Origin: a virus
Direction: 5' to 3' (one strand)
DNA length: 64,000 nt
Virus record (IMG/VR): IMGVR_UViG_3300031369_000002
Span: 24,666-88,665 of that record
In this document: piece after piece, positions 8,078 through 55,626 of the stretch
How positions within the stretch are numbered: position 1 is the stretch's first letter
Layout of the letters: each line of letters opens with the position of its first letter
Position numbers and translations under genes: made by a program
Notes under the pieces: model-generated
Seen by the model: the letters and a program-made list of their open reading frames with translations, nothing else
Told to the model about the DNA's origin: nothing
The model's database searches: none

Positions 8078-8920
8078 CTAAGAGGCTAATAATGCTTTTC
8101 TTCCAGTATAGAATTTCACTACACTGGCTTCAACCTCTGCGGTATACATCAAAGACTCAAACCATTTATTTTGATTTGGTCTTTTAGCTACGACTTTTTT
8201 AGCCCTGGCCCCTCTTTCTACTAAACCCTGAGTTAATAATAACCAGTTTAAGATTTTTTCAAACTCTACAGTACCACTATGATGACGAAACTCAATAGTG
8301 CCGTAAACAGCATAACTGTTTACATTTAATTTTCTATATCTAGCTCTATAAGTGTCTGTGAATACTTCAAGCAAGTCACTGACTGTACTTTTAGAGTCGA
8401 TCAAATCAAATTTAGCTTTTAAATTCATACCTGATAAAGTTCCAACATCTGAGAAGTTTAAGCAATACATATTAGCATTGCCTTTTCTTGAGAGAGGCAT
8501 AAAATTATCAATTTCATCCTCAAACTTTAAATAGGCCTTAGTTAGCGTTTTCCAGCTATCCAAGGTATAATCAATAATTTCATGATGGATATGCAAGCCA
8601 CAAGACTTGTTAACAGTGGCTCCTATGGTATCTAATACAGCACATACAGCCTTTAACTGATTAACACCATCTTTACCAGATAACGGCGGCGATACTAACT
8701 CATAACCTTTAAAATTAACTGTTTTAATTGATTCCTCAGGCTTTATGGAACAGTCAGTAACAACTTTCCAACAGTTATTTAATACTTCATGAGTATAACC
8801 AGCATACACACAAGGTATACCTTCACTCATTAAAACATCTGCTATAGCTCTACCAGTATACTGCTGAGGTACCAACATTTCTATTTCAATCCCAAACTTT
8901 CTACCAGTTAATTTTTTCAT
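8078..8920 (-). CDS. Amidoligase-family protein (COOH-NH2 ligase-like)
   Basis: 280 aa. The N-terminal FGIEIEM (residues 9-15), WKVVTDCSI (51-59), GYELVSPPLSG (72-82), CGLHIHH (107-113) and a later EFRHHSGT are the conserved features of the amidoligase group (Pfam Amidoligase_2-like, glutamine-synthetase/ATP-grasp-type fold), with Glu and His residues binding metal and ATP. Members are predicted to form amide bonds on peptides or cell-wall components; the substrate cannot be read here. The gene has its own palindrome promoter at 8966 and the leader AAGGGGGATTTTAAAA. Confidence 0.8.
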   Translation of the reverse strand: MKKLTGRKFGIEIEMLVPQQYTGRAIADVLMSEGIPCVYAGYTHEVLNNCWKVVTDCSIKPEESIKTVNFKGYELVSPPLSGKDGVNQLKAVCAVLDTIGATVNKSCGLHIHHEIIDYTLDSWKTLTKAYLKFEDEIDNFMPLSRKGNANMYCLNFSDVGTLSGMNLKAKFDLIDSKSTVSDLLEVFTDTYRARYRKLNVNSYAVYGTIEFRHHSGTVEFEKILNWLLLTQGLVERGARAKKVVAKRPNQNKWFESLMYTAEVEASVVKFYTGRKALLAS

Positions 8921-22719: not shown

Positions 22720-23472
22720 TTAATTAAAAAATTCTTCTAAATCAATATCATAACAATTATACCAGGCATCTGCATGATAACAATTAACGCTGCCATAATT
22801 AACATCAGGTACCTTTTTAATTTCCACCTCATACTTTTTAGAGTAATCCTTCAAAGGTTTCCATCTAAACTTACGATTAGTAAACATCTCAACTTTTTTA
22901 ATGGTAGCATGTTTTTTATTAAATCCTACCTCTTCTCTTAACTTATTAACTTCTCTACTAAGATGAGAAGCAGTCACCATAGCTGTAGCAGTTTTCTTAT
23001 CTGATATCCAGGCTTTAGTTCTAATAGCCTCATCTCTTTCTCCTATAACTACAGCCTTTTCACCCTCTAATTTTTCAATAGATAATTGCTTTTCAGCAGC
23101 TAACATTAAAGCTTCCCCATAAGTTTTAGGTACATTTAAACTATAGCTGCCAGTCTTTCTAATTGAGGGCAATACTTCACTAGTAACCCACTTCTTAAAT
23201 TTCTTAGCTTCCTCTTTCTTACTTGATAAAATTAAGGAATATAACCCAGATTCATTAATGATAGTTACACTATTTGTCCCTAATTCTTGAATTGAGAGAG
23301 TGGCTCTGTCATCTTCATCAACATGTCTTATCAAAGCGTTATACGTATTAGAATAATCTAAAATATGAGCTACATCCACGCCAATAAACCAAGGCTCCCC
23401 TTCAATCTCTAAAGACCTAATTTCAAATCCTAACCCTTTATCATCTTTCCAAACTTGTAACGCACTGTTCAT
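22720..23472 (-). CDS. BRO-N family phage antirepressor
   Basis: 250 aa. Residues 1-115 form a BRO-N domain (EGEPWFIGVDVAHILDYSNTYNALIRHVDEDDRA, then NESGLYSLILSSKKEEAKKFKKWV and SEVLPSIRKTGSY), a DNA-binding domain common in phage antirepressors. The rest contains a helical linker and a KilA-C/ANT-like C-terminal part. It probably regulates lytic gene expression. Its leader carries the kissing-loop hairpin pair and a private TTGACT promoter. Confidence 0.9.
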   Translation of the reverse strand: MNSALQVWKDDKGLGFEIRSLEIEGEPWFIGVDVAHILDYSNTYNALIRHVDEDDRATLSIQELGTNSVTIINESGLYSLILSSKKEEAKKFKKWVTSEVLPSIRKTGSYSLNVPKTYGEALMLAAEKQLSIEKLEGEKAVVIGERDEAIRTKAWISDKKTATAMVTASHLSREVNKLREEVGFNKKHATIKKVEMFTNRKFRWKPLKDYSKKYEVEIKKVPDVNYGSVNCYHADAWYNCYDIDLEEFFN

Positions 23473-23492
23473 AAAACTCCTCCTAAATATAC

Positions 23493-23540
23493 AAAGCCCC
23501 TATATACCACCAAGTCCGACCTCAGTTATATAGGGGCTTT
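23493..23540 (-). ncRNA. Kissing-loop leader 1, large-loop hairpin
   Basis: Perfect 14-bp stem (23493-23506 with 23527-23540) closing a 20-nt loop. The loop holds TCCGACC (23515-23521, plus-strand letters), the complement of the other hairpin's loop. Ends 10-20 nt before the antirepressor ribosome site. Confidence 0.7.
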
Positions 23541-23553
23541 TACCTTATTATTT

Positions 23554-23592
23554 AGGTTTTTTAGTTTGGGTCGGATTCAAACCAAAAAACCT
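23554..23592 (-). ncRNA. Kissing-loop leader 1, small-loop hairpin
   Basis: 15-position stem with one mismatch (23554-23568 with 23578-23592) and a 9-nt loop GGTCGGATT. The whole loop can pair with 23513-23521 in the partner hairpin (8 Watson-Crick, one G-U). Confidence 0.7.
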
Positions 23593-23600
23593 ACTCAGGT

Positions 23601-23629
23601 ATAATATCAAATTTTAGATTTATAGTCAA
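23601..23629 (-). promoter_or_regulatory. TTGACT-N17-TATTAT promoter of leader 1
   Basis: TTGACT (23624-23629), 17 nt, TATTAT (23601-23606). Transcription would begin near 23593, at the foot of the first hairpin. Confidence 0.7.
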
Positions 23630-23633
23630 CCTC

Positions 23634-23777
23634 TTAATCTTTTTCCTTCATCAATTCCTCTGCACACTCCGCACAAACATTTAAAACCTGCTTTGTTTTT
23701 TTATGCGTCATTTCAATTAAAAAATAATGTACAGTCTTACTACATTTCTCACACTTAGCAGTATATACAGGCCTCAC
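23634..23777 (-). CDS. Zinc-ribbon microprotein, GTG start
   Basis: 47 aa from GTG 23777 (AGGAGGG upstream): CEKCSK and CAECAEE form one zinc ribbon. Its stop precedes the leader-1 promoter by five nt. Confidence 0.6.
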   Translation of the reverse strand: MRPVYTAKCEKCSKTVHYFLIEMTHKKTKQVLNVCAECAEELMKEKD

Positions 23778-23964: not shown

Positions 23965-24300
23965 CTATACATTAGGAGCATTAGTCCTTAGAACATAACA
24001 TTCAGGAGCAGGCTCCCAGCAAAAAAACATATTATCCTCATTAATTAACCTATCAATAAATACCTGATAATAACCTAAATGCAAACAAACATTATAGCCA
24101 CCAGCTTTGACCGCACTATCCATAGTATCAGCCAATAAATCATATTTTTCTAAGAGTTCTTTTTTAGGTCCAGTTAACTTAAAGTCAAAAGGAGCAAAAG
24201 ATATCCAAACTACCTTTGATTTCTCAGCAACATTACACATTACTTTTGCTGGCTTAATAGAAATCAAAACATTACTTCTATCTAACAATGTAAATCTCAT
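23965..24300 (-). CDS. Hypothetical protein
   Basis: 111 aa, compact alpha/beta (FTLLDRSNVLISIKPAKVMCNVAEKSKVVWISFAP). Not recognised. It is the first gene behind the 245-nt structured leader with the second kissing-loop pair; GGAGG eight nt before ATG. Confidence 0.65.
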   Translation of the reverse strand: MRFTLLDRSNVLISIKPAKVMCNVAEKSKVVWISFAPFDFKLTGPKKELLEKYDLLADTMDSAVKAGGYNVCLHLGYYQVFIDRLINEDNMFFCWEPAPECYVLRTNAPNV

Positions 24301-24333
24301 TTCATTCCTCCTTAGAATAAATAAAGCCTCTTA

Positions 24334-24363
24334 TTTTATGTTAAAAGTCAGAGTAACATAAAA
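24334..24363 (-). ncRNA. Kissing-loop leader 2, small-loop hairpin
   Basis: 10-bp perfect stem (24334-24343 with 24354-24363), 10-nt loop containing GTCAGAG (24347-24353), complementary to CTCTGAC in the partner hairpin at 24397-24438. Confidence 0.7.
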
Positions 24364-24396
24364 CAAAAGACTATTTTCATCATGTATTATTATATT

Positions 24397-24438
24397 TAAG
24401 GTTTTAAACTTGACTCTGACAACAACTTTAAAACCTTA
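24397..24438 (-). ncRNA. Kissing-loop leader 2, large-loop hairpin
   Basis: 12-bp perfect stem (24397-24408 with 24427-24438), 18-nt loop containing CTCTGAC (24414-24420), which pairs 7 of 7 with the small loop. Confidence 0.7.
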
Positions 24439-24439
24439 G

Positions 24440-24575
24440 ATACTTTAAATAAAATAAGCCTTCTCCTTGCCTATAGTTGTGATAGGACACGCATTTTCGT
24501 CGAAGCAGAAAACTTAAAGACCGCAAGTGGTTTACACAAGCTAGATTACTAAAATCTCTTCGATAACTTCATCCT
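24440..24575 (-). ncRNA. Structured 5' leader domain
   Basis: Between the promoter at 24582 and the kissing-loop pair. A long-range stem TCGAAG/CTTCGA (24500-24505 with 24558-24563) encloses two 5-bp hairpins (around 24518-24533 and 24543-24557); outside it a hairpin CCTAT/ATAGG has a TTGTG loop that can pair with CACAA (24535-24539). No known riboswitch class recognised and no reading frame of note. Confidence 0.5.
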
Positions 24576-24581
24576 AAAAAC

Positions 24582-24610
24582 AATATAACACAAAATGATG
24601 TATCAGTCAA
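24582..24610 (-). promoter_or_regulatory. TTGACT-N17-TATATT promoter of leader 2
   Basis: TTGACT (24605-24610), 17 nt, TATATT (24582-24587); predicted start near 24575, giving a leader of about 275 nt to the 23965 gene. Confidence 0.7.
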
Positions 24611-55618: not shown

Positions 55619-55626
55619 AAAAACAT

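Follow-up and report, generated by a model that had tools for sequence, protein, structure and literature searches.

In the ColE1 system, RNAI and RNAII are transcribed from opposite strands and form 7-nt kissing complexes. The guanidine-II (mini-ykkC) riboswitch has two adjacent kissing hairpins ahead of the Shine–Dalgarno sequence (SD), with conserved ACGR loops and a ligand site, and the plasmid rep-leader attenuators of pT181 and pIP501 are addressed by an antisense RNA from the opposite strand. Two further systems govern phage antirepressors. In Gifsy-1 of Salmonella, some of the polymerase passes the IsrK terminator and enters orf45-anrP, where anrP is the antirepressor, and IsrK in trans opens the orf45-anrP leader (PMC4825925). 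In P1/P7, C4 RNA silences ant via complementary stretches that probably lie in loops (PMC12197685).

We analyzed a 64,000-nt stretch of DNA (the window; bases 24,666–88,665 of an 88,665-base IMG/VR virus record, labelled G000 in our comparisons), which belongs to a tailed phage. Every ORF of at least 200 aa in the window lies on the minus strand; one XRE-type regulator was found in this phage, and no tyrosine integrase or resolvase family. The minus strand carries a TTGACT-N17-TATTAT promoter followed by two hairpins (element 1) and then the SD of a BRO-N antirepressor gene, with the following features.

23601..23629, minus strand: sigma-70-type promoter TTGACT-N17-TATTAT, with TG before the −10
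23553..23593, minus strand: hairpin H1, 16 pairs including one G·U, with the 9-nt loop AAUCCGACC at 23577–23569
23569..23575, minus strand: kiss strand K, UCCGACC, in the H1 loop
23493..23540, minus strand: hairpin H2, 14 perfect pairs, 20-nt loop, terminator-like base GGGGCUUU
23515..23521, minus strand: kiss strand K′, GGUCGGA, in the H2 loop
23477..23492, minus strand: interrupted U-rich stretch GUAUAUUU and SD AGGAGGAG
22720..23472, minus strand: BRO-N antirepressor gene, 250 aa (Pfam PF02498, E 2.4e-27; PHROG anti-repressor)

The position of the promoter places the expected transcription start at about 23594, the foot of H1, and the SD (AGGAGG) begins about 8 nt past H2. A sequence-only reading made earlier had proposed this order of promoter, hairpins and BRO ribosome site, and its promoter, its perfect 14-bp hairpin (H2) and the closeness of the second hairpin to the SD of a BRO-N gene all agreed with our analysis. 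Its other hairpin, described as 15 positions with one mismatch, is likewise present with 16 pairs, but the supposed mismatch is the G·U pair of the sense RNA. The loops are indeed complementary, but over less than the nine bases claimed: K and K′ form 7 contiguous Watson–Crick pairs, and the 9-nt register gives 8 of 9, with one A·C mismatch.

A second pair had been proposed at 24334–24438, and we located it at 24325–24443 on the minus strand (element 2), ahead of a 111-aa ORF. Its loops match over 8 nt in a sequence unrelated to that of element 1.

24582..24610, minus strand: promoter TTGACT-N17-TATATT, about 140 nt upstream of H1 of element 2
24444..24575, minus strand: conserved 5′ part of the element 2 leader, about 130 nt (alignment of G000 with the relative G001)
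24392..24443 (core 24397–24438), minus strand: hairpin H1, loop UUGUCAGAGU, with K = GUCAGAGU at 24413–24420
24325..24372, minus strand: hairpin H2, about 18 pairs, 3 of them G·U, with K′ = ACUCUGAC at 24347–24354
23965..24300, minus strand: 111-aa ORF with no assigned function, 93% identical in G001

The kiss GUCAGAGU/ACUCUGAC pairs at 8 of 8 positions, and H2 is followed by the tail UUAUUUAUU and then AAGGAGG. In the searched sets, the 111-aa ORF had no relatives outside G001. The 5′ part of this leader (24444–24575) is non-coding, and its conservation between G000 and G001 is nearly that of coding sequence; it is possibly another structured RNA, without an Rfam match. A pattern search for it in viral contigs recovered the relative only, and five bacterial pattern matches with different spacing were judged to be chance.

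This relative, G001 (IMGVR_UViG_3300035152_000033), carries element 2 almost unchanged. The BRO site is occupied there by another gene, KilA-N (PF04383), which follows a 33-codon ORF, and ahead of the KilA-N gene lies a third pair (element 3) with the same plan, an entirely different sequence and the kiss GUGCAGC/GCUGCAC. In each of elements 1, 2 and 3 the H1 loop is composed of two unpaired bases plus the kiss strand. Comparison of the two genomes suggests that leader and gene were swapped as one unit between close relatives (BRO-N versus KilA-N). Locus L005 6660–7562 corresponds to window 22720–23640, with BRO-N and its leader replaced by KilA-N and an unrelated kissing leader in a close relative. 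The KilA-N protein encoded at L005 6945–7562 has its top PHROG match in phrog_6095, labelled 'amidase', which is probably a mislabelled family. The element as a KilA-N leader as such was rejected, as KilA-N relatives lack it directly upstream.

We then compared the pairs with shuffled controls. None of 25 shuffled windows attained the score of the element 1 or element 2 pair, the 121-nt fold had a z of −6.45, and loop-shuffle p values were 0.007, <5e-5 and 0.0008 for the three elements. Among the 46 intergenic stretches of at least 70 nt surveyed in G000, only elements 1 and 2 stood out. Summed over six hairpins, folding energies were about −112 kcal/mol for the sense strand versus about −75 kcal/mol for the antisense strand. 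The large advantage of the sense strand comes from several pairs that are G·U when read as mRNA, and selection therefore appears to act on the coding-strand RNA and not on a DNA cruciform. A gapped-duplex detector proved too noisy in coding regions, and we used a stem-explicit detector in its place, filtered for a U-rich tail and an SD. Run on all DNA fetched (2.78 Mb), it returned 12 matches, some of them duplicates, which represent seven distinct leaders including element 2; eight dinucleotide-preserving shuffles of the same 2.78 Mb returned 0 matches. Elements 1 and 3 are outside these 12: G001 was left out of that set, and element 1 fails the U-tail filter because its stem extends over the tail. 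AT-rich intergenic DNA commonly has adjacent hairpins, which would suit chance, ordinary terminators whose loops happen to be complementary, or an element acting as DNA (cruciform or single-stranded). Such an origin is nevertheless disfavoured by the shuffle controls, the strand bias of the G·U pairs, the fixed position between promoter and SD and the kiss covariation described below, and we regard it as extremely improbable. On these comparisons, the loop pairing is almost certainly real and selected.

The plan of promoter, H1, H2, U-rich tail, SD and gene was also found in five further phage records, ahead of the following genes.

L061: ParB-like gene (phrog_12305)
L056/G009: replisome organizer (PF09681), then a helicase-like gene
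L062/G017: 274-aa product without an assigned function
G013a: 23-codon ORF
G013b: BRO-N (PF02498, E 8e-27)
L176/G015: homologue of the G017 product, 31% identical

The plan is not specific to antirepressors, being present also ahead of replisome-organizer, ParB-like, KilA-N and function-unassigned genes. G013, like G000, has two elements with different kisses. The nearest relatives of the G013 major capsid protein are those of phages of Gram-negative bacteria and a cyanobacterium, and the nearest of the G009 replisome organizer are from phages of streptococci and related Gram-positive hosts.

In most members H1 starts within a few nucleotides of the expected +1; in element 2 and L056 it is preceded by about 75–150 nt. 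K is 7–8 nt long and usually follows 0–2 unpaired bases of the H1 loop, while K′ lies mostly on the 5′ side of the H2 loop, with the U-rich stretch and SD after it; in G009 and L061, the loop continues after K′ with a small hairpin capped by GCAA or GAAA. H2 runs into a U run (e.g. UUUUAUUUUU or UUUUAUU), and the SD comes 7–11 nt further on in most members and about 40 nt past H2 in L061. The run is strong in several members (GUCUCUUUUUAUUUUU in G009, CGGGUUUUUUAUU in G017), and H2 of G009, G013, G015, G017 and L061 has the clear hairpin and U run of an intrinsic terminator, whereas the U tracts of the window elements are interrupted (UUUGUAUAUUU, UUUAUUUAUU). A simple terminator scan missed these H2 hairpins because it permits loops of at most 8 nt. 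Across nine leaders, nested folds left K and K′ mostly unpaired (0.72–1.0), the K–K′ spacing was 48–66 nt (mostly 52–55 nt), fold z ranged from −3.4 to −5.8, and predicted SD exposure varied by member from 0.0 to 0.95.

None of 62 Bro-N/KilA-N prophage loci, from a sample of about 790 Bacillota and Bacteroidota genomes, was found to have the element; five cultured phages, complete or almost complete, contained no convincing case, and none was found ahead of the Bro gene in other cultured phages. It is therefore not common, as judged from a small and biased sample. A sequence search of phages with elements 1 and 2 gave short chance matches only. The 63%-identical homologue of the G017 gene in L175 is without the element, which is therefore not essential to a G017-type gene.

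Four of these leaders (G017, G013a, G013b and G015) are homologous. They have the U tract and the outer stems of both hairpins in common, whereas the kiss varies: it is GGACGAG/CUCGUCC in G017 and G013a, CUACCACA/UGUGGUAG in G013b and CGACCAGA/UCUGGUCG in G015. Anchored on an invariant A-C, 4 of 7 kiss positions have changed on both sides with pairing retained, in a register set by hand (MAFFT misaligned the short kiss blocks) over four sequences with three kiss variants only. Stems kept with loop complementarity lost, the outcome that the earlier reading had named as telling against it, was thus not observed in the homologous leaders. By the compensatory change at 4 of 7 kiss columns, given the hand-set register and three variants, the leaders qualify structurally as kissing-loop RNA, and this change together with the recurrence of the plan in unrelated phages strongly supports the view of the leader as a kissing-loop RNA. 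Furthermore, the kisses are orthogonal, with 7–8 pairs to self and at most 5 in cross combinations.

We compared the leaders with described RNA families. Rfam (4227 families, at gathering and relaxed E-values) gave no match for the leaders in the window, L005, L056, L061, L062 and L064 (L176 and L212 themselves were outside the scan). The C4 gathering threshold (RF01695) was not reached in the window or L005, versus 52–75 bits in seven control Bro loci; as a positive control, Rfam identified C4 directly before BRO-N genes in those seven other viral loci. The leaders did not reach the IsrK threshold (RF01394) either. In the C4-type target test, a loop complement directly before the SD was present, and several downstream genes were not antirepressors. 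A 'skipping-rope' motif was also considered and had no Rfam match. In the C4 loci (L010, L011, L014, L018, L023, L024 and L041), C4 immediately precedes the BRO gene, with isrK adjoining on the upstream side in L011 and L014, and complementary stretches occur between C4 and its flanks. The complementary matches identified in the upstream regions of 39 BRO genes were C4/isrK systems and not the kissing-leader plan.

The two adjacent hairpins kissing before an SD are shared with guanidine-II, but its ACGR loops and ligand site are absent, and no Rfam match to it was obtained in the window, L056, L061, L062 or L064. This layout is what a ligand- or protein-sensing riboswitch-like leader would have going for it, with the kissing loops as the binding site in guanidine-II or T-box style; with no loop nucleotides conserved across members and K changing freely, we find such a sensor highly unlikely. 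The G017 family, for instance, has 7-nt loops that pair throughout, as in ColE1 RNAI/RNAII, except that both loops here belong to one transcript rather than to opposite strands. The pT181 and pIP501 attenuators resemble the putative attenuator described here in their terminator hairpin just before a replication-gene SD, controlled by loop contacts with another RNA, whereas the partner loop of the kissing leaders lies upstream on the same strand.

Functional analogues are IsrK–orf45–anrP of Gifsy-1 and C4 of P1/P7, both tied to phage antirepressors. The earlier statement that no described leader RNA with this plan is known overlooked these two. IsrK–orf45–anrP (RF01394; PMC4825925) resembles the putative attenuator in being a 5′ leader RNA whose leaky terminator precedes a phage antirepressor, in using complementarity within the leader in cis and, by a short RNA, in trans, and in having a short ORF upstream of the regulator, comparable to the 33-codon ORF ahead of KilA-N in G001; its sequence and fold are different, and its pairing is an extended helix with orf45, not a loop–loop contact. 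C4 (RF01695) similarly lies directly upstream of antirepressor genes, BRO-N included, has short complementary stretches thought to be in loops, and is specific to its own target (heteroimmunity). It differs in having its own conserved fold and two contacts, against a single loop–loop contact of 7–8 nt in the kissing leaders, where, unlike C4, the U tract and SD adjoin the second hairpin. By analogy, the kissing leaders may work like the IsrK and C4 systems, yet they are not members of those families.

Given that one design with different sequences recurs in several unrelated phages, the leaders probably represent a kind of RNA switch for phage genes that has not been described before. We see about an even chance that they are leader RNAs or attenuators of phage mRNAs, in which loop pairing between K and K′, in cis or in trans, would control the downstream gene. 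The terminating or attenuating part would be H2, which as an intrinsic terminator looks strong in G009, G013, G015, G017 and L061 but weak in the window. Transcription would often stop after H2, leaving an H1–H2 RNA of about 100 nt, and readthrough would express the gene. K and K′ would pair either within an RNA still being transcribed, at an early stage when H2 has not yet closed, or across molecules, the short RNA contacting a nascent leader. This pairing would decide between termination or silence and expression; it may also tune read-through or translation. Such a device would place early or regulatory phage genes under autogenous control that responds to concentration, comparable in function to IsrK–anrP or C4–ant. 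The presence of two elements in G000 and an unrelated third at the same site in G001 before a different gene supports the attenuator reading. Since the U tracts of the window elements are interrupted, termination there may be weak or absent, and the effect may be translational rather than terminational; the differing SD exposure among members likewise makes a translational effect possible instead.

A purely structural cis element without regulation, in the form of a kissing 5′ cap against 5′ exonuclease or decay, or of an open standby site, would agree with the position of H1 within a few nucleotides of the expected +1 in most members and with an SD closely after H2. It leaves unexplained both the terminator-like U tracts of the five members named above and the changes of K with complementarity to K′ retained, and some 75–150 nt precede H1 in element 2 and L056; we therefore rate it as rather improbable.

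The near-constant K–K′ spacing could reflect a cis geometry rather than trans action. In a simple rod model, a coaxial kiss with both stems closed needs about 80–120 Å between the stem feet. The linker of element 2 is long enough for this, that of element 1 is borderline, and those of the remaining seven of the nine can hardly bridge the distance. For most members it is thus doubtful, under this model, that both stems are closed at once while the loops kiss coaxially in cis. With such short linkers, a cis kiss probably forms in place of a fully closed H2, or the kiss is intermolecular; the larger H2 loops of elements 1 and 3, L061 and L056 give slack against the linker limit. The same linkers, together with the orthogonal kisses within one genome and the occurrence of C4 RNAs right before BRO-N in seven other viral loci, would favour a pure trans antisense RNA, with H1 released as a small RNA that silences H2 of the same gene, like a C4 immunity RNA with a self-specific loop. 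Against this stand the spacing, the single short contact compared with two in C4, and H1 having neither a terminator directly after it nor a known processing site, and we consider this reading unlikely.

Returning to the attenuator, we tentatively raise a more specific version, in which the leaders would form a class of autogenous phage copy-number sensors: the terminated H1–H2 RNA would report active phage genomes, compete in trans with the cis kiss of nascent leaders via its orthogonal 7–8 nt loop pair, and so set termination before antirepressor, replication-initiation and partition genes. If true, this would be a previously undescribed phage-borne RNA class. With the kissing leaders, phage gene control would gain an RNA class of Rfam rank: a compact leader, about 100 nt long and used orthogonally within one genome ahead of antirepressor, replication and partition genes, with its specificity in one freely evolvable 7–8 bp loop pair. 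As K and K′ can be changed freely, cis versus trans action is directly testable, and the leaders would offer a natural source of orthogonal RNA regulators.

Two other leader regions of this phage were noted. A promoter cassette, CTTGACATRTGTAAAGGA...TATAATA..CATAAGATAAAT, is repeated ahead of SDs on the minus strand of the window (near 55621–55501, 45401–45281, 28961–28851, 22151–22001, 10901–10791, 9801–9671 and 7841–7721), sometimes with a strong terminator upstream; the copies look like a single phage promoter family with a conserved start region. Outside the window, at G000:C1 about 22,190–22,000 (L004 about 8,100–8,300), a leader contains a conserved hairpin, GGGGCCAAUA-UCCUCAUC-UAUUGGCUCC, followed by an SD, and the hairpin leader occurs also in G001 and G002. 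Seven nucleotides of its loop are complementary to GAUGAGG about 65 nt upstream, where the partner is without a clear hairpin loop; this leader is possibly a pseudoknot cousin of the kissing leaders.
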